DNA of 64,000 nt from NCBI RefSeq assembly GCF_015710975.1, contig NZ_CP049783.1:2477501-2541500 (forward strand). Direction: 5' to 3'. Below the pieces are notes generated by a model that did no database searches, was not told where the DNA came from, and saw nothing but the letters and a program-made list of their open reading frames with translations. This stretch comes from Paenibacillus polymyxa. GTDB taxonomy: Bacteria; Bacillota; Bacilli; Paenibacillales; Paenibacillaceae. Numbering within the stretch: position 1 is the first letter of the stretch; each line of letters starts with the position of its first letter. Below are positions 14,078 through 42,330 of the stretch, piece after piece. A program made the position numbers and the translations under genes.

Positions 14078-14147
14078 TATATCACTTCCATCGGATCATC
14101 CGATGCGATATAGGATAACGTGAATTACGGCTAAGGAGATGAAACAT

Positions 14148-17009
14148 TTGGCGAATGAAAGCATCATCATCAAAGGCGCACGCGCGCATAATCTCAAAAA
14201 TATTGACGTGACGATTCCGCGGGACAAGTTCGTTGTCCTGACAGGGCTTAGCGGCTCAGGTAAATCATCACTGGCTTTCGATACGATCTATGCGGAAGGA
14301 CAGCGGCGGTATGTGGAATCATTATCTGCGTATGCCCGTCAATTCCTCGGGCAAATGGAGAAACCGGACGTCGATTCGATTGACGGCCTGTCACCTGCCA
14401 TTTCCATTGACCAAAAAACGACAAGTCGGAATCCTCGTTCTACGGTCGGAACAGTTACAGAAATCTATGATTACCTGCGGTTGTTATTTGCCCGAGTGGG
14501 TCATCCTCATTGTCCTGAACATGGCATTGAAATCACTTCACAGACCGTCGAACAGATGGTAGACCGCATTTTGCAGTATCCTGAAAAGACACGGCTACAA
14601 ATCCTGGCTCCATTGGTATCCGGCCGCAAAGGTGAGCATAAGACACTGTTCACTGATATAGCCAAGCAGGGCTTTGTACGGGTACGTGTGAATGGCGAAC
14701 TGCGTGAATTGTCCGAGAAGATTGAATTGGAGAAGAACAAGAAGCACTCGATTGAAGTGGTCGTAGACCGGATCGTAGTCAAGGAAGATGTACGTGCGCG
14801 TCTGTCCGACTCTATCGAGACGGCACTGAATCTTTCAGGCGGACAGTTGCTTGTAGATATTATAGGGCAAGAGGAGTTGCGATTTAGCTCCAACTTTGCG
14901 TGCCCGATTTGCGGTTTTAGCATAGATGAGCTGTCTCCCCGAATGTTCTCCTTTAATAGTCCGTTTGGTGCTTGTCCAGATTGTGATGGGCTAGGAGTTA
15001 AAATGGTGGTTGACCCTGATCTGCTCATACCCGATCCAGAAAAAAGTGTAGAAGATGGGGCATTCCAGGCATGGAGTGGAGGAACTTCCACTTATTATCC
15101 TCAATTTTTACAGTCCGTATGCGAACACTACGGTATTCCGCAGGACGTTCCTGTAAGCCAATTGACGTCAGAACAAATGAATCTTATTTTGCACGGAACA
15201 GGTGACCAGAAGATCCGTTTCCGCTATGAAAATGATTTTGGTCAACGTAAGGAAGCCTATGTGACCTTTGAGGGCATTATCCCGAACCTGGAGCGTCGCT
15301 ACCGTGATACGGCTTCTGAGGGAATACGTGAATTTATTGAAGGCTTTATGAGTGCAAAGCCATGTAACACCTGTAAGGGGCACCGACTGAAAAAAGAAAG
15401 CCTGTCGGTAACCATTCAAGAGCGTAATATCGCTTATGTGACAGCTTTGTCTGTCGGGGAGGCTTCTCAATTTTTCCATACACTGGAGCTGAGTGAGAAA
15501 GAGCAGTCGATTGCCAACCTCATTTTAAAGGAAATTAACAGCCGACTGGGATTCCTCGTTAACGTTGGTTTGGAATACCTGACTTTAAGCCGTGCGGCAG
15601 GTACATTGTCCGGCGGGGAGGCACAGCGTATCCGATTGGCGACACAGATCGGGTCCAGTCTGATGGGTGTGCTTTATATTTTGGACGAGCCAAGTATCGG
15701 GTTGCATCAGCGAGATAATGACCGCCTGATTAGTGCTTTGGAACATATGCGGAACCTAGGCAATACGTTGATCGTGGTGGAGCATGACGAAGATACGATG
15801 ATGGCGGCAGACTATATCATTGACATTGGGCCAGGAGCCGGAATCCATGGCGGGATGATCATGTCACAGGGGACCCCACAGGAAGTTATGGAAGATCCGA
15901 ATTCCCTGACCGGTCAATATTTGAGCGGGCGTAAGTTTATTCCGGTCAATAGCGAGCGGCGCAAGCCTGCAGATAAGTGGCTGGAGATTCGCGGAGCCAA
16001 GGAGAACAATCTCAAAAATGTGAATGTCAAAATTCCATTGGGTGTTTTCACGGCTGTCACTGGTGTATCCGGGTCTGGGAAATCGACGCTAGTCAACGAA
16101 ATTTTGTACAAAACGCTGGCGCGTGATCTGAACCGTGCGAGAGTACGTCCAGGTCAACATAAAGAAATTCGCGGGCTAGAGCATATCGAAAAGGTGGTTG
16201 AGATCGATCAATCGCCAATCGGCCGTACACCGCGTTCCAATCCTGCGACTTATACCGGTGTGTTCGATGATATCCGTGATTTATTCTCGCAGACGAACGA
16301 GGCTAAGGTTCGAGGCTACAAGAAAGGCCGGTTTAGCTTTAACGTTAAGGGAGGCCGATGTGAATCTTGCAGAGGCGACGGCATCATCAAGATTGAGATG
16401 CACTTTCTGCCCGATGTGTACGTACCCTGCGAAGTGTGCAAAGGCAAACGCTATAATCGGGAGACCCTCGAGGTTAAGTATAAAGGGAAGAGTATTGCTG
16501 ATGTGCTGGAGATGACGGTAGAGGATGCAACAGCATTTTTTGAAAATATCCCGAAGATTCACCGCAAGATTCAGACGCTGATGGATGTAGGTTTGGGGTA
16601 TATCAAGTTGGGTCAACCAGCGACTACCTTGTCCGGTGGTGAAGCACAGCGTGTGAAGCTGGCTTCCGAACTGTATCGTCGCAGCACAGGTAAAACCATT
16701 TATATTTTGGATGAGCCGACAACGGGTCTACATGTTCACGATATTGACCGTTTATTGACGGTGCTGCATCGTTTGGTTGATTCGGGAGAAACGGTACTGG
16801 TTATTGAACATAATCTAGATGTAATTAAAACAGCCGATTTCCTGATTGATCTGGGGCCTGAAGGCGGAAGCGGCGGTGGAACGATCTTGGCTACCGGGAC
16901 ACCAGAACAACTCGTAAAAGTTGAAGAATCCTATACAGGCCGATACTTAAAGCCGATCCTTGAACGGGATACACAGCGCAGCCAAGCGCTTCAGACCGTC
17001 GATCTATAG
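14148..17009 (+). CDS. uvrA: UvrABC excinuclease subunit A
   Basis: The 953-residue damage sensor of nucleotide excision repair: two ABC-type ATPase halves with Walker A motifs [13 protein letters not shown] and [13 protein letters not shown], signature motifs [12 protein letters not shown] and [12 protein letters not shown], and zinc-binding cysteine pairs ([29 protein letters not shown]). It recruits UvrB to lesions. I start it at TTG 14148, 9 bases after AAGGAG, giving [20 protein letters not shown], like other UvrA N-termini. The ATG at 14139 touches the ribosome site and is an unlikely start. A leader gap of 169 bases separates it from uvrB. Confidence 0.98.
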
Positions 17010-29438: not shown

Positions 29439-30320
29439 ATGAAAATCCGTAAAGCAATTATTCCTGCTGCGGGATTAGGAACCCGGTTCCTTCCTGCGAC
29501 CAAAGCGATGCCTAAAGAGATGCTTCCCATTGTAGACAAACCAACCATTCAATATATTATTGAAGAAGCTGTTGCATCTGGTATAGAAGATATCATTATC
29601 GTTACTGGTAAAGGCAAAAGGGCAATTGAGGATCATTTTGACTACTCCTTCGAGCTGGAGCATAACTTGACTTCGAAGGAAAAATGGAACCTGCTCAATG
29701 AAGTACGCAAGCCATCAGAGATGGCAGATATCCACTATATTCGTCAAAAGGAACCTAAAGGCTTGGGGCATGCCATCTGGTGTGCACGTAAGTTTATTGG
29801 TGATGAACCTTTTGCCGTCCTTTTGGGTGATGACATCGTAGAGTCTGAGAATCCATGTCTCAAGCAGATGATTGACGTGTTCGATGAGTATCAGCGTTCT
29901 ATTGTAGGTGTAAAACAAGTCGATTGGAACGAGGTACATCGTTACGGGATTGTTGAAGGCCATGCACTTACTTCCAAAATCTCTGAGGCGGAACGATTGG
30001 TGGAAAAGCCTAAGAAGGAAGAAGCCAACTCCAACTTAGCGATCATGGGACGGTATATCTTGACACCTGATATTTTTGATATCCTGGGTCAGCAATCCGC
30101 CGGAGTAGGTGGGGAAATTCAACTGACGGACGCATTGTCCAAACTGGGAGAAAAGAGTCCGATCCTAGCCTATGAATTTGATGGCAACCGCCATGACGTT
30201 GGCGAGAAGCTGGGATTCATTGAAACGACCATTCATTATGCTCTACAGCATAACGAGATTAAGGATGAAGTACTGGCTTATATGAGACAGGTTATTGAAG
30301 ATATTGACCAACAGAAATAA
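29439..30320 (+). CDS. galU: UTP--glucose-1-phosphate uridylyltransferase
   Basis: The 293-residue enzyme makes UDP-glucose from UTP and glucose-1-phosphate. The nucleotide-binding N-terminus is [23 protein letters not shown], followed by [14 protein letters not shown] and LGDDIVES, and the length equals that of Bacillus GalU/GtaB. AAAAGGAG precedes the ATG by 10 bases. Its product would feed the surrounding polysaccharide genes and the divergent GtrB-type transferase. The island of decayed insertion sequences and the lanthipeptide genes begins directly after it. Confidence 0.95.
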
Positions 30321-30349
30321 ACCTTACTGTAAGAAGTAGGACTGATCCC

Positions 30350-31150
30350 TATTTGTAAGACAGAGAGCAAAATACTTTTCAGTTTAAGGACCAGTTGCTA
30401 GAAACGAACTGGCGATTGGTTATTTAGTTCTGTTGAATGCAAATTAAGGTTAGTAGGTAAAGTAGTCCTGAACCGTCCGTTCGACGATATCCGTTGTTGT
30501 ATAGCTCAAACCTTGAGATAGCACGTTTCAGACTTTAACGTGGAATGGAACGACTTGATGGAGCATTATCAGCAGTCCCCCCCCTTGCGGGGGAGCTTAT
30601 GGTAATGCTTTTTACCTTTCCAACTTTCTGATACGCTTTGGATTATAAACGCTGCCTTGATTGCTATGGAGTATTGTACCTGGTAGAAACGGTAATTGGT
30701 GAAGCGTATCCAAGACAAACGCGGTATTTTTGCTTGTCAGCTACACTTTATGCCACAATTTCTCCATTGAAATTCAAAGATACTCGACAGATACAACATT
30801 TTCTCGCCAAACGGTAAATACGTAATTTCCATAACGATTTTTTGCATAGGGCTTCGATCCCGAATTGGTGCTTTAATAGAGATGCACTACTATATAAGTT
30901 GGCTGATTCTGTGCGTTTTCGTTTCTTGAGTTTGAGATGACATTGTAACTGCTCACCCTACATGATTTATTGTACAAGTTTATGATTGACCTTATGCTCA
31001 TAAGAAACAAGTCCGTGGCCTTCCTGTATCCATACCGAGTTTTATGCTGTATGTAGAGTTCGCGAACATTCCTACGAGAAGTTCTTCTCCACGGCCTCGT
31101 AGCTGCTTTCTAGTGGAAGTATATGGCTTGAGGAAGACCTATCCATCACA
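30350..31150 (-). pseudogene. Decayed IS3-family transposase (OrfB), many frameshifts and stops
   Basis: No long frame survives, but translated pieces on the minus strand match the IS3/IS150 OrfB order: KTRYGYRK (about 31030-31055), VNHKLVQ-IM after a frameshift, FNGEIVA, LHSNQGSVYNP (about 30630-30670; the DDE region where functional copies read LHSDQG), and DNAP further on. Stops and frame changes lie between them, and the catalytic Asp of HSDQG is Asn. Boundaries are approximate; minus-strand pieces with KKYKELK up to 31390 may belong to the upstream orfA. Confidence 0.65.
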
Positions 31151-31479
31151 AGCTTGACTTCAAATTCACTTTTCCCGAAATAGATTTCCCCATTGTACTA
31201 AGTAGTCTCTGGTGACATCCCCCTTCAACTCCTTGTACTTTTTAGATCGTCTAATTGTTGCTTTAAAAATCAATTTTCCGCTTTTTGGTTGCTCAAACTC
31301 TGAATGTATGCTCAGGTTCTTTTTTATAGCTGTATTGTTTCCGAGAGGCAGCTTTATCCGTTTCAATTCGCCGTTAAGATACGACCTTAACATGATTTTT
31401 ACTTGTTCTTATTTCATATGCCCAATTGCTCCATGACTTGTCAGGCCGAGATACTAGCCAGTATCAGGAGATGCTTTCA

Positions 31480-31508: not shown

Positions 31509-31606
31509 GATGTAATAAAAAGAAACTTTTTTTCTCTTGATGCGTCTTATATATTGAGAGGTTGCCCATTGAGGTTCTCTCAACTTTATCGAAGGGAGGG
31601 ATTAAG

Positions 31607-31774
31607 ATGAATTCTCCAGAATTAGTCTTTTTCGAACAAGAGGACACCCTTGATTTGGACTTACAAATTAATGATCTAACATTAAAGCAAGCGAAAAATC
31701 CTTGCACAAGCACTGTAACTTGTAGTGTTTCTAGATGCCTTGGTACACATGTGACTTGTGAGTGTTGGTGCTAA
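31607..31774 (+). CDS. Class I lanthipeptide precursor peptide (LanA)
   Basis: The 55-residue precursor is preceded by AAGGGAGGG, 7 bases before its ATG; an in-frame ATG at 31562 lacks a ribosome site. Residues 1-30 are an acidic leader with LDLDLQINDL at about 15-24, standing where class I leaders carry the F-N-L-D type box that binds LanB. The C-terminal part (about residue 31 on) is NPCTSTVTCSVSRCLGTHVT then CECWC: six Cys and eight Ser/Thr, all Ser/Thr being candidates for dehydration. Multiple lanthionine rings and a compact CECWC end are inferred. The leader cleavage site is not evident; no protease gene is nearby. A LanB and a LanC gene follow directly. I do not recognise the core as a known lantibiotic. 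Confidence 0.88.
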   Translation: MNSPELVFFEQEDTLDLDLQINDLTLKQAKNPCTSTVTCSVSRCLGTHVTCECWC

Positions 31775-31790
31775 CTTTAAAAGAAATCTG

Positions 31791-31826
31791 ACCCTGGATA
31801 TTATTTCATACATCCAGGGTCTTTTA
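31791..31826 (+). terminator. Attenuator between lanA and lanB
   Basis: ACCCTGGAT (31791-31799) and ATCCAGGGT (31812-31820) form a perfect 9-bp stem followed by CTTTT. Placed between precursor and modification genes, it would make precursor mRNA exceed lanBC mRNA and protect its 3' end. Confidence 0.85.
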
Positions 31827-31849
31827 CTTCAGGAGGAGGTTATCCTATA

Positions 31850-34800
31850 GTGGATAAAGTTACAAATATAAATATGTTTCAGTCATTAGATTTTTTTATG
31901 GTGAGAGTACCACTACTGCCTATTGATTTTTACTATAACTTATTCAGTGAAAGTACTACATATGATGTGACAAGGAACAAGGCTTTATCTTTGTTAACAG
32001 ACCCTGTTATACGGGAAGCGATCACCATAGCCAGCCCTTCACTTATGAATTCTATCAATAATGTCCTAACCAATAAAAATACTAAAAAAATGAACACGGT
32101 GCTACGGGCAGTTGTGAATTATCTAATCAGGCTTTCTTCAAGAGCTACACCTTATGGGATTTTTTCTGGGGTTTCTATAGGTCTCTTTTCGGAACTTAGC
32201 TGCTTGGAAGTGGGTGATACTAGGCAGAACAGGAAAATATCCCGTCCAGATATGGAATGGATCATGGGATTGGTTAGATATTTAGAGAAAGAGGGAAATG
32301 TGGTAAAACAGTTGGCGGTGCGGACTAATCCAACCTTGTATTTATCTGGTACAAGAATAAAATTGCCATTTTTAAACTATATTGAACAACACCACGATCC
32401 TGATGTAAAACGAATGAAAAGTAGTTCGATAAAAGCGTCCAAGCCGGTTCAGCTTGTGATGGATTATGCACAAACTCCGATTCCTTTTGCTAATCTAGTT
32501 AAGAAAATACAAGAAGAGTATCCCGAAAACAAAGAAACTTTAATAACTGAATTTCTGATGAAGCTATTGAATCAGGAGTTTTTAATTAGCAATTTGAGAC
32601 CACCATTATGCATAGATAATATGGATTTGCCTTTTGAATATCTACGAAAACAGATAGCACCTATAAACAATATTGAATATATCAAAAAAGGTCTGGATGA
32701 AATTAGTGAAGAAATAAAACAATACGATGATTCTCCAATAGGTAATGGGGAATCCTTGTACAATCAGCTATGTATAAGAATGAGAAAATTAGTTCCAACG
32801 AAGGAAACTTTGCAGATTGATATGGAGACAAAAGTAGAAGAAGCCTTTTTAAGCCAAAATGTCTCTAAAGATATTGCTAGATCAGCAGAGATCTTATGGA
32901 GGCTGTCGCCGGATTTGAGCAATCCTCATTGGACACAGTACCGAAATGATTTTATAGAGAAATATGGTATTGATTGTCAAGTTCCGATCTTAGAGCTTTT
33001 GGACGAAGATTTAGGGTTAGGGGCTCCACCTGATTATAAATATCCTGAGAGTAGATATAGTTTAGAACACCCTATACTAAATGCAGAGAGAGAGAAGGTT
33101 CTGGCAAACTGGATTACAAATGTTATTAAAGAAGGAAAAATAGAAATAGAACTGACGGATGAAAAATTAAAGAGAATCGAGACTTTATCTGATGAGCTTT
33201 TGCCCCCTACCTCTATAGAAATGTATGTTACCATAGCAGCAAATAGCGAAGAAGCTTTGAAAAATAACGAATATAAGATCATTATCAACCCCAATTCGGG
33301 AAGTGCAGGTGCGGGTAAAACATTTGGAAGATTTGGACCAATCCTAGATAAGACTGCAAGAGAGAAGATCACGAACACGTATAAAATTCAAGAGGAATAC
33401 AGAAAAGATGCTATATTTGCTGAACTTGTATATTTAACGGTCAATAGTAGACATTCTAACGTAGTGATTACCAACAAATCATGTAGTCACCAAATTGTGT
33501 TGGGAACTAATTATTCCAATGTAGATACTTCAAAACAAATTTCAATTTCTGATTTATATGTAGGATGTACCCACAATTACTTTTATTTAAAGTCACAGTC
33601 GTTGAATAAAGAGATAATCCCAGTTTCCACCAACATGCTAAATTACAATAATGCTCCCAATGTATACCGCTTTTTAATGGAAATTTCACAAGAAAGACAC
33701 AGAAGCATTTTGCCTTTTCAGTGGGGAGGCCTATCGGAATTCCCTATGCTGCCTCGTGTGAAATATAAAAACATAATTTTATCTTTAGCGAAATGGTCGC
33801 TTGATAAAAATAACGATGAATTAAAAAAATGTAAAAACGAGGAGGATTGGATTGAGGGTTTTGAAAAGTGGAGAGGGGAGTGGCGCGTTCCAAGATATGT
33901 TTATATTACCACTTCTGTTTCAGATAACAGAGTACTAATTGATCTTAAAAATGAGTTTTTCATATTAGAGTTATTTGAGAAATATCATAAATTAAGTGAT
34001 TCACAATCATTATGGTTAACCGAGAGTGGATTTGAACCAAGTGACGTATGGGCTAGAGGGAAAGAAGGGCGCTTTATCGCAGAGTACGTTATTCCCTTAG
34101 TAAGGACAAATGTAGAGGAACCTTTGACCCCGAAGCAGTGTGAAGATATGAATCTTATTCAAAGACCAATCAGAGAGCATTCAAACATTATATATTTACC
34201 GGGAAGTGAATGGCTTTATATAAAGCTTTATGGTATGTCTGAACGAGAGGAAGAGTTTATTGGCAATTACATTAGAACATTTTGTGAGCAGGTAGAGAAT
34301 CAAGGAATAATAAATCGTTATTTTATTGTTAGGTATAAAGATCCGGATCATCATATACGGTTACGACTTCATGGTGAGGAATCCGTTGTTTGTAAACAAC
34401 TAATCCCTGCTATTCATATGTGGGCTAGACGCCTAAAGGTTGGAGGTCTACTAAGTAAAATAATATTTGATTCATATGAGCCGGAAATTGAGCGATACGG
34501 TGGTAAACGTTTAATTAGTATAGCGGAGCGTTTTTTTGCTGTTGATTCGAAGATTACAGTAGAACTGGTCTCTTTAAAATATAACAATAAGTTGAATGTT
34601 CCTATAGAGATTATTGGTTTCATTAGTGTAATTGATATTTTAAATCAGTTTATACCAGCGGTAGAACGGCAAGTTACTTGGTTTCATGAAGAAGAATGGC
34701 ATATGGAGCATGTAAAAGATTTTATGAAGGATCGCACTTTTTATATAATTTTGTGCGATGTTTCGGACAATTGGTCCTCACTTAGAAATTTGGAGTACGG

Positions 34801-35080
34801 GGACTACTTATTATCTAAGTTTCAAGAGCGAAAAAAAATAATAAATGAATATAAAGAGGCACTTGAACATGAAAAGGATTTAACGAATACATTTTCCAAT
34901 ATTCTAGGTAGCCTCATTCATATGCATTTAAATCGTCTTATAGGTACGAATAGGAAAATGGAAAGAAAGATAATGTCGTTGTTAAGTCATTCTTTATATC
35001 ATTTTAATGAATCAATAAAACACAAGAAAAAATGTATTTCAAAGGAGTCGAACGTTGATGACAGTAGTACAAAACAATAA
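31850..35080 (+). CDS. Class I lanthipeptide dehydratase (LanB), full length
   Basis: The 1076-residue enzyme dehydrates Ser and Thr of the precursor using glutamyl-tRNA. The long N-terminal glutamylation domain (about 1-760) includes RLSSRATPYGIFSGV near residues 93-107, typical of Lant_dehydr_N; the C-terminal elimination (SpaB_C) domain begins near 785 (WLYIKLYGMSEREEEFIGNY) with IVRYKDPDHHIRLRLHG. The length is that of an intact LanB (NisB 993, SpaB 1030), so the gene is not decayed. It starts at GTG with AGGAGGAGG 10 bases upstream and overlaps lanC by about 23 bases. Base composition is clearly more A/T-rich than the housekeeping genes on either side, which suggests acquisition. Confidence 0.93.
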   Translation: MDKVTNINMFQSLDFFMVRVPLLPIDFYYNLFSESTTYDVTRNKALSLLTDPVIREAITIASPSLMNSINNVLTNKNTKKMNTVLRAVVNYLIRLSSRATPYGIFSGVSIGLFSELSCLEVGDTRQNRKISRPDMEWIMGLVRYLEKEGNVVKQLAVRTNPTLYLSGTRIKLPFLNYIEQHHDPDVKRMKSSSIKASKPVQLVMDYAQTPIPFANLVKKIQEEYPENKETLITEFLMKLLNQEFLISNLRPPLCIDNMDLPFEYLRKQIAPINNIEYIKKGLDEISEEIKQYDDSPIGNGESLYNQLCIRMRKLVPTKETLQIDMETKVEEAFLSQNVSKDIARSAEILWRLSPDLSNPHWTQYRNDFIEKYGIDCQVPILELLDEDLGLGAPPDYKYPESRYSLEHPILNAEREKVLANWITNVIKEGKIEIELTDEKLKRIETLSDELLPPTSIEMYVTIAANSEEALKNNEYKIIINPNSGSAGAGKTFGRFGPILDKTAREKITNTYKIQEEYRKDAIFAELVYLTVNSRHSNVVITNKSCSHQIVLGTNYSNVDTSKQISISDLYVGCTHNYFYLKSQSLNKEIIPVSTNMLNYNNAPNVYRFLMEISQERHRSILPFQWGGLSEFPMLPRVKYKNIILSLAKWSLDKNNDELKKCKNEEDWIEGFEKWRGEWRVPRYVYITTSVSDNRVLIDLKNEFFILELFEKYHKLSDSQSLWLTESGFEPSDVWARGKEGRFIAEYVIPLVRTNVEEPLTPKQCEDMNLIQRPIREHSNIIYLPGSEWLYIKLYGMSEREEEFIGNYIRTFCEQVENQGIINRYFIVRYKDPDHHIRLRLHGEESVVCKQLIPAIHMWARRLKVGGLLSKIIFDSYEPEIERYGGKRLISIAERFFAVDSKITVELVSLKYNNKLNVPIEIIGFISVIDILNQFIPAVERQVTWFHEEEWHMEHVKDFMKDRTFYIILCDVSDNWSSLRNLEYGDYLLSKFQERKKIINEYKEALEHEKDLTNTFSNILGSLIHMHLNRLIGTNRKMERKIMSLLSHSLYHFNESIKHKKKCISKESNVDDSSTKQ

Positions 35081-36398
35081 GAGCCTGCATAACGATATTA
35101 TAAAAATTGTAAGTGTTATAAGTGCCAGGTTGACTGACCCCCAGTATGTACAGACTATATGTTCTTCTGAGCAGAATCATGTAGATAAACAAGAGGAGTT
35201 TAATTGGAATGATATAAGCCTGGCAACTGGATTTCCGGCAATCAGTATTTTGTATGGGAGACTAAGTACTGTATTAAAGGATGAGAGATTAAAAGAGTAT
35301 GCACACTCCTACCTTTTAAGTACTCGTGAATCATTAAAGAAATCAGGAGCGTCATTATCACTATGGGAAGGATTATCTGGTGTTGGATTTGCCGCATATC
35401 TATTATCTGACAATGGTATAAAATACAGAAGATTTATCAACCAAATTAACACTTTGATATTGCGTCATGGTAGTGCTGATCTACTGAATGCAAAAAGTGG
35501 GCTGGAATCAGGTACGTCAATTAATGATTATGATGTAATTTCCGGATGGAGTGGCATAGGAAGGTATCTGTTACTGTTCTCTGATATACCTGAAATTAGG
35601 GAGCTCCTTATTGGTGTTCTTGAGTATCTTGTTCTTCTAAGTAAAGATAGGATTATCAACGATAAACAAGAGGTTCCGAATTGGTATATTTCAAATAAAT
35701 ATTTACTTTCACATGAAAAGGATGAATATCCATTTGGATATTTTAATATGGGTTTAGCCCATGGAGTTCCTGGCCCCTTGGCATTATTATCTATAGCGTT
35801 ACTTCAAAATATAAAGGTACCTGGTCAAATAGAGGCAATTCAACGATACTGTGACTGGATAACAAAATGGAAATTGGAACAAACAGATAGAATACAGTGG
35901 CCCTTAATTATAAGCTACGAAGAATTTACTAACGATCAATTATACGCTAAAAAACATCGGGATGCTTGGTGTTATGGTTCGGCAGGTGTTGCGAGGAGTC
36001 TATTTTTAGCAGGTAGATCCATCGGGGATAGAAGCTTGGAGGTTTTAGCTGTAAACGCATTTAAATCGATATACAAAAGATCTATCGAAGAGTGGAATAT
36101 TTATTCACCAACGGTATGCCACGGATATTCAGGATTATTGAAAATTACCTATCATATGTATCGGGACACACACGATCCTGAATTGCAAGAAAACTATCAA
36201 AGCTTGCTCCGAACGGTCGTTAAAATGTTTGATGAAGAATCGGCATTTGGTTTTTATGATTTATATAGGGATTCTAATTCTACTAAGAATTTAAATTATG
36301 TAGGTTTACTTGACGGTGTTTCGGGAATAGCCATGACATTACTAGATTCTCTTTATCCTGATGAAAAGGATTGGGGGGCGAGCTTATTGATTTGCTAA
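35058..36398 (+). CDS. Lanthipeptide cyclase (LanC)
   Basis: The 446-residue zinc enzyme joins Cys thiols to dehydrated residues, making (methyl)lanthionine rings. All active-site elements are seen: His235 (GLAHGVPG), zinc ligands Cys305 (WCYGSAG) and Cys354-His355 (VCHGYSG), plus the repeated G-x-x-G motifs of the alpha/alpha toroid (LWEGLSGVGFAAYLL; GLLDGVSGIAMTLL). AAAGGAG precedes the ATG by 10 bases (a TTG one codon earlier is also possible), inside the end of lanB, so the two are translationally coupled. The operon stops here: no LanT, LanP, LanFEG/LanI or LanRK gene follows. Confidence 0.93.
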   Translation: MTVVQNNKSLHNDIIKIVSVISARLTDPQYVQTICSSEQNHVDKQEEFNWNDISLATGFPAISILYGRLSTVLKDERLKEYAHSYLLSTRESLKKSGASLSLWEGLSGVGFAAYLLSDNGIKYRRFINQINTLILRHGSADLLNAKSGLESGTSINDYDVISGWSGIGRYLLLFSDIPEIRELLIGVLEYLVLLSKDRIINDKQEVPNWYISNKYLLSHEKDEYPFGYFNMGLAHGVPGPLALLSIALLQNIKVPGQIEAIQRYCDWITKWKLEQTDRIQWPLIISYEEFTNDQLYAKKHRDAWCYGSAGVARSLFLAGRSIGDRSLEVLAVNAFKSIYKRSIEEWNIYSPTVCHGYSGLLKITYHMYRDTHDPELQENYQSLLRTVVKMFDEESAFGFYDLYRDSNSTKNLNYVGLLDGVSGIAMTLLDSLYPDEKDWGASLLIC

Positions 36399-37086: not shown

Positions 37087-37425
37087 TCACTTACAACGTG
37101 AGCGAGTTGATCCTGAGGACTTCTCGAATGGACTCGACCCAAGCAATGACGACTTTAGGTTCCACCTTCTTTCCAGCTCCTTGTGCATTTTTTCTACTCT
37201 TACTTCTTCAAACTCCAAAGAGTGTTCACGGACCTTGTCCGTAGCTGTATCGCTTGCCCACAGGCTGCTCCAGACGGTATACTCCGTTTTTTCATCCACG
37301 TTTTGAGCTGTGTCATATTCCGTATCTCCAACTGCTCTATAACCTCTCTTACAGGTACTCCTGCCAATCTCATTTCGGGCGCTCTCACTTTTTATTTCTA
37401 ACGGGTAACTCACTCTAGTTGCCAA
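37087..37425 (-). pseudogene. Remnant of an IS3-family OrfA (transposase helper)
   Basis: Minus-strand pieces in different frames assemble into an IS3/IS150-type OrfA: MATRVSYPLEIK at the start, EMRLAGVPVREVIEQLEIRN with TQLKTWMK (helix-turn-helix), and HKELERRWN from the coiled-coil end. At least two frameshifts separate them and OrfB is not recognisable beyond it. This is a second, separate IS3-type scar from the one upstream of lanA. Confidence 0.72.
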
Positions 37426-37428
37426 CGC

Positions 37429-37491
37429 AAAAACACCTTCAAGGTTATCCCCCTATCTTACGACAGGATTACATTCTCTTGAAGGTGTTTT
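37429..37491 (+). repeat. 14-bp inverted repeat at the edge of the IS remnants
   Basis: AAAACACCTTCAAG and CTTGAAGGTGTTTT are perfectly inverted, 35 bases apart, next to the OrfA remnant start; they may form a terminator or belong to an element end. A second small palindromic stretch, CCCATCGATTTATGGG, lies at about 37563-37580 and resembles insertion-sequence tips. Confidence 0.55.
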
Positions 37492-37622
37492 AATTGTCTC
37501 ACGTTGTGGGGTAGTCCCACATCCATTTTAGCAAGGATAGGCTTTTTTGTTTTTTAGGACATCCCATCGATTTATGGGACAGCCTCAAATAAACAAAACA
37601 GAGAACAACTAAACTCCAGGGA

Positions 37623-40073
37623 CTATTCTCTTTTCAGTTCGTTTATCAGTTCTTTTTCCCTGGGATCAGCTTGAATCAGCTTATCGTACAATGCTTTGTC
37701 ATCTTGTCCCTGCTTTTGCAAAGCGGCAATATAGTATCGGGTTACCTCACGATTCGTAGCGTCACTCAGATCGTCCTTCAAGCCGTTTTTCAGGATGACG
37801 GCAGCCTCGGCGGGTTTACCTGACATGAACTCAATTTTTCCAGCACTGAGCGCAATGCTTGGAGTTACTTCAAAAGTACGTATCAATTGAATTTCAGGTG
37901 GAATCGTCTTAAGATGAGCTACCCCATCTAGAACCTGCTGATAAGCAGCAAGACCTGCTTGGAAATACTTCTGTTCCTTGGCTGAGTCCTTAGCCAATCG
38001 AGCTTTATTGCCAAATTCAAACGCTTGGGTAATCAGCAAATTGTACCAATCCAGATCCCAGGTGAAGTTAGCACGGTTATTTTCCAAAATGGCAAATGCC
38101 TTGTCATTGTTTCCTTTAGCTTGCTCAAGTCGCATTTTGATAAACAGCATATTTCTATTATACGGTTCTGCCTGCAGCCCCAAATCAACAATGGCCATAC
38201 CGCCTGTATAGAACTCTTCGCGTTTGGTTTGCTTGTAGACCTGATAATACATACTAGACAAACCAACAATTGAATCAATATGAGTTGGGCGCAGATTCAA
38301 ATCCTTATTATAAGCAGCTTGTCGTTGTTCGAACGAATTGCTGCTTTCCAGCGCTTTTGCTTCCCAGGCAGCATTGCTGGCTTGTGCAAAGCGCAGCCCT
38401 ACAAACAGAAGCACAATACTGAGAACACAAATGACGATACTATAAATCGGACGGAAACCTTCAGGCTTCATCGCCAAGCGTTTTACAGGTTGTGCATCCA
38501 TTGCTGCAGCCATACCCCCGAGTCCAATAAACACCAGTATACCCATGAACACATAACTCATATTAAAGTCCAATAGACTATGGAGCAAAATGGACATTGC
38601 CAAGATCAGGTAAAGGAAGTGGCTATCCTGCTTTTCCTCATCGCTCTTGATGTAACCTTTAATGTATTTATAGAAGATATAAAGGATAAATGCCATAAAA
38701 ATAATGAATCCAAGAATACCGGCCTCTACCAGATACTGCATGAAAAAGTTATGTGCCTGTGCGCTTGTGTAGCCATAGTCTTGATATTTTCCATACAGCG
38801 TAGCCCAACCGCCGCCACCTGCGCCAATCAACGGATAATCAGCAATTAGCTTGGAAGCATCGCGATAAAAGGTTATACGTTCCAGCACACTATGCTGTTG
38901 GAAGTTGATATTTTCCAGACGTGTCTCTACATTGGCTGGTAGAAAAGTTCGTAGTCCTGTACCAATGAGCAGGAACGCAATTACACCAATCACGACCACA
39001 GAGCCAACAGGCAGCCACAGATTAGAGAGTTTACGTGAGGCTAGACCGTGCATCCTTTTTTCCAAACGAGATCCCAGAGAGGTTTGTATAAGCCATAGAA
39101 CAACTGCAGTCACCAAGGAAGTCCCAAGAAGCAGTCCCCAGCCTTTAGCAGCCACAGCACCGTTGTAGGTCTGATTCAGCTGTAATCCCCAATTTGTAAT
39201 AGGACTCAAAATAGCAAGTGAAACGACACCCGCAATTGCGCAATGTAAAAGCCATAAGATTTGCCGCGCTGGCTTAAAGAACAGAAGTAAAAGAACAAAT
39301 ACGACTGGCAGCATTATGAGACCACCACGTGAAAGTGTCAGGAACAGTGATACCAATATAGGCACCAGCATAAAGGCATGAGTCGCTTTTCCATACCACG
39401 TCTTCGACTTCATCAGACAAAAGATAGCTGCGAACAAAAATGCCATCAAAAATGCCGCATATGTATTCGCGTACTGGAAGACGGAAGTGAGACGCGGACC
39501 ATTAGTATCTATCTTTATGGCATCAACGTAGCGATTACCGCTTACCATTGTTGAGAACCAATCCACGAGTCGTCCGGCCAATGCCCACTGTCCAAACCAG
39601 TTGATGAGGCCGAAGCCTATAATAATATAAGCTACGGTCATAATCGCGGTTTGGATGATTTGGTTGCTCAACCGATCTCGCAAGGCGTACAATGTAATGA
39701 TGAAGAACGAGGCATAGATGCACTGCACCACTACCATGTTCATCGCGAGATAATGAGAAGCAGCAGAAATCAATGAAAGCACGAACGTCAGCGGAAGTAA
39801 GATAACAAGCACAGCCAACCAGTCTCTTTGATCTTCCAATTTGAATTTCTTATAATAGGTTACGATTCCCAATATCAGCAGAATCGTGCTGATGATCAAA
39901 GCCCAATACAGAGGCTTCTCAAAGTCGAGCATTTGACCATTAAAAAGCGCCGCCTGGAAGGGGGCCCAAGCTAAAAACAAAATCATGCCAACAATTAACA
40001 CCCAAAACATAGCCGGCCTTTTATCGTCACGGGTCGACGTTTTGGCCTGTTTCCCGTATACTGGATTCGACAA
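37623..40073 (-). CDS. O-antigen ligase-like (WaaL/RfaL) membrane protein with C-terminal TPR-like domain
   Basis: The 816-residue protein has about a dozen membrane spans in its first 540 residues, including the large external loop and GAGGGGWATLYGKYQDYGYTSAQAHNFFMQYLVEAG, which matches the conserved H-N-x-x-L region of O-antigen ligase/Wzy-type proteins. The last 270 residues are soluble helical repeats of TPR type (LNLRPTHIDSIVGLSSMYYQV, LGLQAEPYNRNMLFIKMRLEQ). Such proteins transfer or polymerise lipid-linked glycans outside the membrane; in Gram-positives they attach polysaccharide or sugars to wall or S-layer proteins. It starts at TTG with AAGGAG about 10 bases upstream. It is divergent from the ABC exporter genes. 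Confidence 0.85.
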   Translation of the reverse strand: MSNPVYGKQAKTSTRDDKRPAMFWVLIVGMILFLAWAPFQAALFNGQMLDFEKPLYWALIISTILLILGIVTYYKKFKLEDQRDWLAVLVILLPLTFVLSLISAASHYLAMNMVVVQCIYASFFIITLYALRDRLSNQIIQTAIMTVAYIIIGFGLINWFGQWALAGRLVDWFSTMVSGNRYVDAIKIDTNGPRLTSVFQYANTYAAFLMAFLFAAIFCLMKSKTWYGKATHAFMLVPILVSLFLTLSRGGLIMLPVVFVLLLLFFKPARQILWLLHCAIAGVVSLAILSPITNWGLQLNQTYNGAVAAKGWGLLLGTSLVTAVVLWLIQTSLGSRLEKRMHGLASRKLSNLWLPVGSVVVIGVIAFLLIGTGLRTFLPANVETRLENINFQQHSVLERITFYRDASKLIADYPLIGAGGGGWATLYGKYQDYGYTSAQAHNFFMQYLVEAGILGFIIFMAFILYIFYKYIKGYIKSDEEKQDSHFLYLILAMSILLHSLLDFNMSYVFMGILVFIGLGGMAAAMDAQPVKRLAMKPEGFRPIYSIVICVLSIVLLFVGLRFAQASNAAWEAKALESSNSFEQRQAAYNKDLNLRPTHIDSIVGLSSMYYQVYKQTKREEFYTGGMAIVDLGLQAEPYNRNMLFIKMRLEQAKGNNDKAFAILENNRANFTWDLDWYNLLITQAFEFGNKARLAKDSAKEQKYFQAGLAAYQQVLDGVAHLKTIPPEIQLIRTFEVTPSIALSAGKIEFMSGKPAEAAVILKNGLKDDLSDATNREVTRYYIAALQKQGQDDKALYDKLIQADPREKELINELKRE

Positions 40074-40223: not shown

Positions 40224-41012
40224 ATGAATTTAACTCAAAACTTTTCGAAAAATTTAAAGTTACTTTGGGAATTGTCTAAAAAGGATATACAATCTAGGTA
40301 CCTTGGTTCATTTATGGGAGTACTCTGGGCTTTTATACATCCTATGGTATCTATACTTGTTTATTGGGTCGTATTTCAGGTTGGTTTTAAAAATGTACCT
40401 ATTGGTGATACTCCTTTTATACTTTGGTTACTAACAGGCATGGTACCGTGGTTATTCTTTTCGGAAAGCTTGTCAACTGCAACCAATAGTATTATTGAAA
40501 ACAATTATCTGGTAAAGAAAATTGTTTTCCGAGTAGGCTTGCTACCAATGGTAAAAATTTTGGCTGCTCTTTTTGTCCATGTTTTTTTTATCATCGTTCT
40601 TTTCATTATGTTCAAAATATACAATGTTGAATTTACGATGTATAACATTCAAATCCTTTATTATTTATTGGCCACCATTCTTCTTTCTTTGTCCATTTCT
40701 TACATAACAGCGACATTGGTTGTTTTTGTAAAAGATGTTGGTCAAATTGTAGGAGTGTTTATTCAATTGTTTTTCTGGCTTACGCCAATCTTTTGGAATT
40801 TGAATATTGTCGAGGATAAGTATCAGTTTTTCTTTAAACTTAATCCTGTTTTCTATATTGTTGAAGGATATCGTGATACCTTTATTAATCACAAATGGTT
40901 CTGGGAGCATCCATCCATGACGATCTACTTTTGGGCTATTGTGATCATCGCAGGTACGATAGGAATCAAAATTTTCAAAAAAATGAAATCTCATTTTGCT
41001 GATGTATTGTGA
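40224..41012 (+). CDS. Polysaccharide ABC exporter, permease (Wzm/TagG family)
   Basis: The 262-residue protein has six membrane spans and the ABC-2 type signature (WELSKKDIQSRYLGSFMGVLWAFIHPM at the N-terminus). This family carries undecaprenyl-linked polymer (O-antigen or teichoic acid) through the membrane. It precedes its ATPase partner by 10 bases. The ribosome site is poor (TAAGG), so translation may be weak. Confidence 0.92.
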   Translation: MNLTQNFSKNLKLLWELSKKDIQSRYLGSFMGVLWAFIHPMVSILVYWVVFQVGFKNVPIGDTPFILWLLTGMVPWLFFSESLSTATNSIIENNYLVKKIVFRVGLLPMVKILAALFVHVFFIIVLFIMFKIYNVEFTMYNIQILYYLLATILLSLSISYITATLVVFVKDVGQIVGVFIQLFFWLTPIFWNLNIVEDKYQFFFKLNPVFYIVEGYRDTFINHKWFWEHPSMTIYFWAIVIIAGTIGIKIFKKMKSHFADVL

Positions 41013-41022
41013 GGAGAAGAGT

Positions 41023-42330
41023 ATGACTCAAACAGAATCAGTTGCTGTAGAAGTTAATAATGTCACTAAAATATATAAAATATATGATAATCCCAATGAA
41101 CGTTTAAAAGAGGCTATTCATCCTTTTAAAAAGAAATATCATTCTGATTTCAAAGCCATAAGTGACCTTTCCTTTTCTATTAAAAAAGGGCAAGCGATTG
41201 GCATTATCGGTAAAAATGGTTCGGGCAAATCGACTCTTTTAAAAATGATTACAGGCGTAATTACGCCTACCCATGGAAGCATAAAAGTGAATGGGAAAGT
41301 TGCAGCTCTGCTGGAACTCGGTGCTGGGTTTAATCCAGACTTAACTGGAATGGAAAATATTTATTTAAATGGTACGCTTATGGGCTATAGCAAAGCAGAA
41401 ATGGATGAGAAGGTAGAAGATATTACATCCTTTGCGGATATTGGGGACTTCATTAATCAACCAGTCAAAATGTACTCCAGCGGTATGTTTGCCCGATTAG
41501 CCTTTGCAGTAGCCATCAATGTTGATCCAGACATTTTGATTGTGGATGAGGCCTTGTCTGTTGGAGATATTTATTTTCAGGCCAAATGTATCACCAAAAT
41601 GAAGGAGCTCTCTAAAAAGAGCACAGTTTTATTTGTCTCTCATTCCATGGATACCATTAAGAGTTTTTGTGATACAGCATTGCTTATTGATAAGGGACAC
41701 ATGGTCGAAATTGGTCCAGTGAAGCGCGTAGCACAAATTTATGAAAATATTATTAACCAGGAAATTGCAGATATGAAGCGTGTGCAATCTTTGGATACAT
41801 TTGTGAATTCCGAAACGGATAAAAAGAGTACGCTGTTGTTGTTAGAAGAGGATCCTGCTTTTGCAAAACGTGCCAATGAGTTTCGTTCTGGAACGGGAGA
41901 TGCACGTTTTATAAGGGCAGACTTGTTAGTCAATGGAGAAGTGGTAAACCAGGTCCCTTTTGGCGAAATGGTTACTTTGCGTTTGCTGGCACAATATTAT
42001 AAAGATATTGATTCCGAGGGAACCATTGGCTACATGGTTAGAAACCATACTGGTGTAGATGTGTTTGGCATGAATATCTACAATAAGGCCAAATTAGTCC
42101 CGAAAATGCAAGCAGGGGGCATTCTTGAGGTTAACTTTAATTTCCGCAATCTTTTGTCTGAAAGTGGTAAATACACCATTTCTATTGGCTTAAAGCCTAA
42201 GCCGTTTGAGCCTCTTTATTTGGATAGCGTAAGTATAGCAGCTGTTTTTGAGGTTCCTAAGCCAGAGAATAATTACGTACCAGGTTTAATATTTGTAGAT
42301 AATACAATAGATTTGCAAGTTATTACTTAA
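41023..42330 (+). CDS. Polysaccharide ABC exporter, ATPase with substrate-recognition domain (Wzt/TagH family)
   Basis: The 435-residue ATPase has Walker A GKNGSGKSTLLK (about 66-77), signature MYSSGMFARLAFA and Walker B ILIVDEALSVGD. Residues about 290-430 form a Wzt-C-type beta domain (VTLRLLAQYYKDIDSEGTIGYMV, LSESGKYTISIGLK), which in O9a-type systems recognises the capped end of the finished polymer before export. GAGGAGA lies 5 bases before the ATG at 41023; the upstream in-frame start at 40996 overlaps the permease end. Export by Wzm/Wzt implies polymer is completed inside the cell. Confidence 0.93.
   Translation: MTQTESVAVEVNNVTKIYKIYDNPNERLKEAIHPFKKKYHSDFKAISDLSFSIKKGQAIGIIGKNGSGKSTLLKMITGVITPTHGSIKVNGKVAALLELGAGFNPDLTGMENIYLNGTLMGYSKAEMDEKVEDITSFADIGDFINQPVKMYSSGMFARLAFAVAINVDPDILIVDEALSVGDIYFQAKCITKMKELSKKSTVLFVSHSMDTIKSFCDTALLIDKGHMVEIGPVKRVAQIYENIINQEIADMKRVQSLDTFVNSETDKKSTLLLLEEDPAFAKRANEFRSGTGDARFIRADLLVNGEVVNQVPFGEMVTLRLLAQYYKDIDSEGTIGYMVRNHTGVDVFGMNIYNKAKLVPKMQAGGILEVNFNFRNLLSESGKYTISIGLKPKPFEPLYLDSVSIAAVFEVPKPENNYVPGLIFVDNTIDLQVIT

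Follow-up and report, generated by a model that had tools for sequence, protein, structure and literature searches.

A class I lanABC module lacking its own transporter genes at a conserved galU/wzy site in Paenibacillus polymyxa

The analysed stretch of the P. polymyxa chromosome (the window; 64,000 nucleotides, NZ_CP049783.1 positions 2,477,501 to 2,541,500) includes intact lanA, lanB and lanC genes at 31607–36398, located between two decayed copies of an IS3-type element. Outside the debris, an intact galU gene for a UTP-glucose-1-phosphate uridylyltransferase-type protein with an NTP_transferase domain (29439–30320, forward strand) and an intact wzy-type O-antigen ligase gene with a Wzy_C domain and orthologues in relatives (37623–40073, reverse strand) form the left and right borders of a conserved site. 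The lan genes are all on the forward strand. lanA (31607–31774) encodes a 55-aa precursor and has an ATG start preceded by a Shine-Dalgarno region, GGGAGGG (31585–31606); lanB (31850–35080) begins with GTG and is followed by lanC (35055–36398). The stem-loop between lanA and lanB (31790–31821), assigned to the forward strand, is called by the pattern scan only on the reverse strand and is likely an attenuator (partial terminator); the interval 31772–31850 has a z score of −2.48. Rfam gave no matches at gathering scores.

LanB (1076 aa) is a full-length dehydratase that includes Lant_dehydr_N (596 bits) and Lant_dehydr_C (175 bits), and the cyclase LanC (447 aa) matches LANC_like with 206 bits, all above the respective cut-offs. 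The LanC zinc ligands Cys306, Cys355 and His356 are all present. LanB residues R94, R98, R837, R839, R882 and H1024 are invariant over the six sequences of one alignment, and align with what we take to be the catalytic positions of NisB. These domain hits and aligned residues agree with the initial annotation, which described the precursor and both enzymes as intact.

LanA passes the NCBIfam FDLD class I lanthipeptide model NF038155 with 21.2 bits (cut-off 20). It consists of a 14-residue extension and an LDLDLQ box followed by the 23-residue core CTSTVTCSVSRCLGTHVTCECWC, which contains 8 Ser/Thr and 6 Cys residues; leader cleavage would occur before the first Cys of the core. For a core cut at this point, the calculated [M+H]+ is 2479.00 in linear form, 2388.95 after five dehydrations and 2334.92 after eight. 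The box reads LDLD, not FDLD, both here and in the precursor of a related genome, G072. The P. alvei precursor also passes NF038155 (21.4 bits), and no NCBIfam model matched the precursors of G072 and Paenibacillus sp. SYP-B3998 at E 0.01. As judged by its full-length LanB, separate LanC with three zinc ligands and FDLD-type precursor, the locus is a class I lanthipeptide locus.

Window ORFs of at least 50 aa were searched by phmmer with three LanT, one LanP, two LanF, three LanC and one LanB queries. LanB and LanC of the locus were recovered, the LanP query had zero matches, and no LanT or LanFEG genes were found apart from weak matches of the LanT and LanF queries to a Wzt-type ATPase (40996–42330; at most 60 bits) and to an ORF at 14139–17009 (28 bits). 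Wzm/Wzt (40224–42330) was rejected as an exporter, as the pair looks suited to exporting polysaccharide, with a Wzt_C domain in Wzt. A Pfam scan of neighbouring ORFs showed no LanI- or LanRK-like genes. The locus falls short of a full class I lantibiotic operon, since LanT, LanP and LanFEG are missing from the cluster, and on this point the initial annotation is confirmed for the window.

IS debris on both flanks, as also noted initially, is on the reverse strand. The left flank (30339–31466), comprising orfB and part of orfA, and the right flank (37203–37518), an orfA end, match one element in genome G091 (L269) with 71% and 76% DNA identity, the latter over element positions 2396–2721. The G091 element encodes a transposase with HTH_21 and rve domains. 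Six translated debris ORFs gave no significant Pfam domain; hence the IS3-type assignment is based on DNA matches to other copies. Both flanks contain element stretch 2396–2574 and therefore represent two copies in the same orientation, not one element split by insertion of lanABC. No similarity between the two flanks was detected at E 0.01.

The initial annotation gave recent loss of the remaining operon genes as one of two alternatives and proposed comparing related strains for a fuller operon. In fact, lanABC without LanT occupies the identical galU/wzy gap in G072 (L032) and P. alvei DSM 29 (L034), the LanB proteins of which are each 53% identical to that of the window, and no LanT was found at the site in either. 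G072 is a single contig across the site and has no IS debris beside lanABC. galU also adjoins an empty gap in 14 of 19 readable relatives. In P. alvei DSM 29, lanB is broken into two overlapping frames, and a 96% identical P. alvei protein (P0005) is free of this break. A further relative, in SYP-B3998, is an unlinked lanABC directly followed by MauE and redoxin genes.

In a quick LanB tree calculated without bootstrap, the window, G072, P. alvei and SYP-B3998 fall in one 8-row clade (SH-aLRT 99; 100 for its 7-row core). LanT is missing in all four clade rows of known gene context; P0001–P0004 are rows of unknown context, and that of P0005 was taken from DSM 29. The genomes behind P0001–P0005 are those of FSL H7-0442, P. 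polymyxa, P. kribbensis, FSL L8-0502 and P. alvei strains. Long branches were flagged, SYP-B3998, P0005 and L058 among them, and the placement of SYP-B3998 is therefore unsure. Sister to the clade is a branch with three LanT-linked rows and L058 of Bacillus sp. FJAT-27245, a LanB elsewhere in the tree that also has no adjoining LanT and whose candidate precursor has one Cys.

The usual view of class I lanthipeptide export involves a LanB-LanC-LanT complex whose genes lie together. Of the long-open LanB loci that were fetched from the family outside the clade, 34 of 34 have LanT (and LanC), and a transporterless class I locus is indeed unusual in this family, as had been claimed. The family scan matched 50 of 394 genomes, with at most two candidates scored per genome, and used a profile built from clade members, which raises clade scores. 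From it 38 regions were fetched: the 34 long-open loci, a distant LanB-like gene lacking both LanC and LanT (L260), a broken LanB beside which LanT remains (L261), P. alvei (L262) and a LanB remnant (L263). The LanB loci of G000 and G072 were covered separately, and partial matches that were short (E 4e-8 or weaker) fall outside the fetched set. In a contig search, a single LanB query found nothing and a LanB alignment query found 60 loci; L064 and L053 were left out since contigs end near the cluster, and the L064 genome has LanT at another contig end. In plasmids, 112 of 72,556 records matched by tblastn, every one at less than 60% identity.

Recent loss of the remaining genes was rejected, given that LanT is absent from each of the four clade members whose context is known, and the absent parts look like a lasting arrangement. 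The locus is probably a working minimal class I cassette of a lineage that has no transporter, protease or immunity genes of its own at the site and is served from elsewhere in the genome. On grounds of homology and intact catalytic residues, LanB would dehydrate Ser/Thr residues of the LanA core and LanC would close the thioether rings, and proteins encoded elsewhere would export, cleave and tolerate the modified precursor. In this strain, the likeliest helpers would come from the paenilan and paenibacillin clusters, namely their LanT, S8-protease and LanFEG-like systems, or else be general extracellular S8 proteases. The cassette would occupy a gap common to several Paenibacillus lineages, with the IS3-type copies presumably coming to flank it in this strain.

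Supply by other genome-encoded genes, one of the options raised initially, is plausible. The same chromosome carries paenilan (L004) and paenibacillin (L005) clusters with genes for LanT, LanFEG-like ABC proteins and an S8 protease, and their precursors are identical to the paenilan and paenibacillin sequences printed in PMC7343975. No second LanB was found in P. alvei DSM 29 or SYP-B3998; therefore, borrowing from another class I cluster cannot hold clade-wide. Neither was a paenilan-type LanT found in P. alvei (150 of 171 candidates scored) or SYP-B3998 (150 of 167 scored), though a paenibacillin-type LanT would not stand out there, as the paenilan LanT query gives just 128.6 bits on the paenibacillin LanT of its own genome. 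Recognition of LanA by the paenilan and paenibacillin LanTs is uncertain because the leaders of those peptides are without the 14-residue extension.

This extension, MNSxxLxxxxQEDT, is a candidate signal. It occurs in 8 of 9 aligned precursors, which represent five distinct sequences after merging of near-copies, the exception being SYP-B3998. The core pattern C-[ST]-x-x-V-T-C-x-V-S-x-C is found in five of the nine rows, with variants in the others. Precursors of the galU/wzy site have 14 residues ahead of the box, whereas 33 of 34 LanT-linked family precursors have 4–8, with starts picked by Shine-Dalgarno match; in the window, G072 and P. alvei, the starts giving 14 residues have the strongest Shine-Dalgarno sequence among the alternatives. 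In LanT-linked L235, the best-scoring start is at 15 and a start at 5 is almost as good; its near-copy L237 has only the start at 5.

A bolder reading is possible but rather doubtful, namely that the lineage gave up LanT permanently, that a non-LanT or shared exporter reads the 14-residue extension before the FDLD box, and that the cassette persists at the galU/wzy site, where alternative alleles of it are exchanged. To a similarly limited degree, the extension might instead be recognised by a dedicated, unlinked ABC exporter of the clade's own, making the co-resident LanTs irrelevant. The difference in leader length is consistent with the latter, as are the MauE and redoxin genes behind lanABC in SYP-B3998 and an orphan LanT-like ABC gene in P. 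alvei that is accompanied by MauE and redoxin, with no precursor seen alongside. However, the SYP-B3998 precursor has no extension, the start that scores best in L235 lies at 15, and the two MauE proteins share only 27% identity. In addition, a search of 12 genomes with the P. alvei MauE found no match in the remaining 11, G000 and G072 included; it also missed the SYP-B3998 MauE, and its negative result therefore extends only to close homologues. The P. alvei ABC-MauE-redoxin genes were accordingly set aside as a general partner, with the same restriction.

It is improbable that the locus is a dying remnant that recently lost its LanT, LanP and immunity genes and makes nothing useful. The IS debris on both sides and the frame break in P. 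alvei DSM 29 would fit such decay, but LanB and LanC have remained open with their catalytic residues across ~50% divergence and the LanT-less state is common to four clade members. Moreover, the P0005 protein lacks the break, and a LanB row 99% identical to that of the window (P0001) represents 26 member sequences. Slighter still is the chance that export as an antibiotic is not the fate of the modified peptide, which would then act inside the cell or be released by lysis only. No exporter gene recurs consistently alongside the module, and in one published test (PMC11210098) P. alvei DSM 29 was inactive against two indicator species; this inactivity is weak evidence because lanB of DSM 29 is broken in the assembly examined. 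Against this reading, the FDLD-type leader box and the core resemble those of secreted class I peptides, and no precedent for it is known to us. Least credible is an assembly error that removed LanT and other genes, since, although assemblies tend to break at IS copies, the same gene order is found in three genomes of different species and G072 crosses the site in one contig with no IS.

A clade with intact LanABC and no LanT offers a natural test of exporter sharing or of takeover by another exporter, and the leader extension provides a handle on the export question. For genome mining, the lack of lanT should not be taken as grounds to dismiss a lanABC module as broken. The locus also adds an uncharacterised core-peptide family. 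Among the literature matches listed, in which subscription journals are mostly outside coverage, there was no report of a class I clade devoid of LanT.

The exact precursor is already published as an unexplored prediction: it is identical over all 55 aa to that of Bac3 from P. polymyxa #23, a lantipeptide classed as 'unknown/unique' (PMC10731318). In the part of that paper available, lanB and lanC are likewise reported adjoining the precursor, and Bac3 is one of five predicted clusters, with no product reported and no remark on a missing transporter, a conserved site or relatives.

The paenilan cluster resembles the lanABC module in being class I, with an FDLD leader, a LanB that is 34% identical and no protease in the published clusters, but it encodes a LanT, LanFEG-like ABC proteins and a Trans_reg_C protein of its own, and its precursor has four residues before the box and another core. 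Paenilan is matured by an unclustered S8 protease (PMC8960859). The paenibacillin cluster is also class I, with a LanB that is 24% identical, but it includes LanP (S8), LanT and AgrB-like/AgrC-like genes, and its precursor has six residues before the box. SpaT of the subtilin (spa) system has been studied together with NisBC (PMC12328550). With a frameshifted epiT, epidermin (epi) is still made, at a reduced level, and gdmT complements the defect (PMC5945643). The subtilin and epidermin systems offer earlier examples of host proteases removing the leader and of a peptide still being produced when LanT is defective, although their clusters, unlike the lanABC module at the galU/wzy site, encode or encoded a LanT.

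The three genes of the lanABC module lie where the initial annotation placed them, and the finding is real. The 55-residue precursor encoded by lanA (31607-31774) combines an LDLDLQ box with a 23-residue core rich in Cys, Ser and Thr; it exceeds the cut-off of the NCBIfam FDLD class I model by a small margin (21.2 bits vs 20). LanB (31850-35080) includes two dehydratase domains, and the positions aligned to those NisB residues that we take to be catalytic are invariant in all six sequences of the LanB alignment A2. LanC (35055-36398) retains all three zinc ligands. These conserved features make it very probable that the module can produce a modified precursor. A stem-loop in the lanA-lanB interval (z -2.48) would act as an attenuator raising the level of precursor mRNA over that of enzyme mRNA. 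The same precursor appears in the genome paper of P. polymyxa #23 under the name Bac3 ('unknown/unique'), together with lanB and lanC (PMC10731318); the part of that paper available makes no mention of the missing transporter.

LanT, LanP and LanF queries revealed no LanT, LanP or LanF in the window; a Wzt-type ATPase (at most 60 bits) and, at 28 bits, the ORF 14139-17009 gave weak matches. The insertion-sequence debris reported on either flank was confirmed as two IS3-type copies in the same orientation, each decayed, at 30339-31466 (71% match) and 37203-37518 (76% match to the same element, which carries HTH_21 and rve transposase). This element is multicopy in relatives, with four copies in one genome (G066). 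Outside the copies lie intact galU (29439-30320, + strand) and wzy (37623-40073, - strand), on the border of a polysaccharide locus that includes an ABC-2 permease, a Wzt-type ATPase, glycosyltransferases and an asparagine synthase.

The lack of LanT has persisted in a small clade at a common site and does not mark the module as debris. A LanB profile, searched against 394 genomes of the family (E 0.001, up to two candidates scored per genome), matched 50 of them. Among the candidates scored it exceeded 1400 bits at three, in the window, in G072 (a P. polymyxa-group genome) and in P. alvei (G284), the next scoring 988; the profile was built with clade members, and scores therefore favour them. 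The surroundings of 38 LanB places included 34 outside the clade with a long open LanB, all 34 having a LanT-type exporter and LanC. Of the other four, one was P. alvei, one a broken cluster that keeps traces of LanT, one a LanB remnant and one a solitary, distant LanB-like gene. In a quick IQ-TREE analysis of 53 LanB sequences, the window, G072 and the protein rows P0001-P0005 formed one group (SH-aLRT 100), joined by Paenibacillus sp. SYP-B3998 (99), which is on a long branch and of unsure placement. LanT is missing in all of the four group rows, out of eight, whose context is known (that of P. alvei being taken via DSM 29), and hence, measured against the module, the LanT-less state is old. 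FJAT-27245, a fifth row without LanT, is on a sister branch alongside three LanT-linked rows. The lanABC genes of SYP-B3998 (L036 9736-15613) are at a different place, again without LanT, and are followed by genes for MauE and a MauD-like redoxin. Assuming cleavage before the first Cys, the SYP-B3998 core has 21 residues, seven of them Cys.

The suggestion that the missing parts are supplied from elsewhere is plausible. The genome of the window has two further LanB clusters, whose precursors agree residue for residue with the paenilan and paenibacillin sequences given in PMC7343975. These clusters carry one LanT each, a LanFEG-like ABC set, scoring below cut-off throughout (271.8 bits for TIGR03740, 28-40 bits for the MutE/MutG permeases), and an S8 protease. 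A second, LanT-containing cluster in G072 encodes a core identical to that of paenicidin A as published for P. polymyxa #23, a strain that has paenicidin A together with Bac3, the precursor identical to that of the window (PMC10731318). Each of the three P. polymyxa-group cases seen thus has a second class I cluster. Against this, no second LanB was found in P. alvei DSM 29 or SYP-B3998, the LanB of the module being the sole one. The best matches to the paenilan LanT query there reached 277 bits (30% identity) and 169 bits, respectively, whereas two further genomes in this search gave 498 and 527 bits. The same query scored only 128.6 bits on the paenibacillin LanT of the window genome, and the search therefore rules out a paenilan-type LanT, not every LanT. 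P. alvei DSM 29, besides its orphan lanABC, carries a LanT-like ABC exporter gene followed by MauE and redoxin genes (L180 7221-10827). No precursor-like ORF was found beside them in the stretches read, and the set is at most a candidate exporter of the lanABC peptide. None of the other 11 genomes searched gave a match to the P. alvei MauE, but this search also missed the MauE of SYP-B3998.

Recent loss, the other explanation offered initially, is contradicted by the four LanT-less group members and by the locus comparison, in which a fuller operon was not seen and both G072 and P. alvei DSM 29 hold the same trio without LanT. In G072 the galU-wzy gap contains lanA, lanB and lanC only, 113 and 112 bases from the neighbouring genes, and no IS; P. 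alvei DSM 29 has galU, lanA, lanB, lanC and wzy in this order. In this draft genome lanB (L034 9974-13152) is split into two overlapping frames, which may be a sequencing error; P0005, a P. alvei LanB that shares 96% identity with it, is intact. A strong wzy match was found in 46 genomes of the genus, and the gap was surveyed in those of the window and G072 and in 20 of the remaining 44, of which one had a contig too short to be read. Among the 19 readable relatives, galU adjoins wzy with no ORF >150 aa between in 14, including the nearest relative at wzy (G033, 94.5% DNA identity); three have other inserts, galU is absent at this place in two, and none has lanABC. Since occupancy varies, the gap takes different cargo, and the three other inserts indicate that it may be an insertion hot spot. 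In the survey (L124-L143), G007 and, by eye, G019 had transposase-like ORFs in the gap, and G017 two acyltransferase-like genes, also by eye.

LanB of the window is 53% identical to that of G072, as compared with 97% for galU and 75% for wzy at the protein level, and 52-53% identical to that of P. alvei, a similar divergence; LanC identities are 55.5% and 53.6%, respectively. As LanB is far more diverged than galU and wzy, vertical descent from a recent ancestor is a poor fit, and exchange of diverged cassettes at one fixed site would account for the divergence. The wzy gene is mosaic, with 84-94.5% DNA identity to G033, G004 and G006 and ~72% to G072, G014, G015 and G063. galU and a neighbouring U32-peptidase-type gene are 91-96% alike in G033, G072, G014 and G015, indicating a mosaic polysaccharide locus. 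In G072 (L032), the 113-base interval from galU to lanA includes a 14-base perfect inverted repeat (CCCTTAAAATAAGA / TCTTATTTTAAGGG) reaching the lanA Shine-Dalgarno sequence, and a shorter one lies upstream of that of the window; translation control by these repeats is possible.

Eight of nine aligned group precursors, near-copies among them leaving five distinct sequences, have a 14-residue extension (MNSxxLxxxxQEDT-like) before the [FL]DLD box; that of SYP-B3998 has three residues. Gene context is available for four of the nine (the window, G072, P. alvei and SYP-B3998), the others being the precursor rows P0121-P0125. With starts picked by Shine-Dalgarno match, the start at 14 was the best among alternatives in the window, G072 (TTG) and P. 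alvei (GTG), and the best start was at 4-8 residues in 33 of 34 LanT-linked precursors collected by pattern search, the exception (L235) having its best start at 15 and a nearly equal one at 5. The extension could direct the precursor to a different exporter or protease. The box begins with Leu in the window, G072 and P0123-P0125, and with Phe in P0121, P0122, P. alvei and SYP-B3998.

Other lanthipeptide loci were seen in the survey. Tumebacillus flagellatus (L044 7342-9899) has a row of about a dozen small FDLD-type ORFs containing Cys upstream of one lanB, an apparent case of many precursors per single dehydratase. Precursors at L038 9393-9860 and L065 9716-9925 have cores of repeated C-[YF]-[ST]-[ST]-x units (CYSSQCYSSKCYSDTC...), unlike nisin-type cores. 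A P. alvei draft genome paper lists one lanthipeptide cluster, without detail in the part available (PMC7285544). A whole class I clade without LanT was not reported in the literature searched. Borrowed maturation is already known: an S8 protease ~551 kb from the paenilan cluster matures paenilan (PMC8960859), epiT frameshifts lower epidermin production and are complemented by gdmT (PMC5945643), SpaT has been studied together with NisBC (PMC12328550), and secreted host proteases process presubtilin (PMC5100339).
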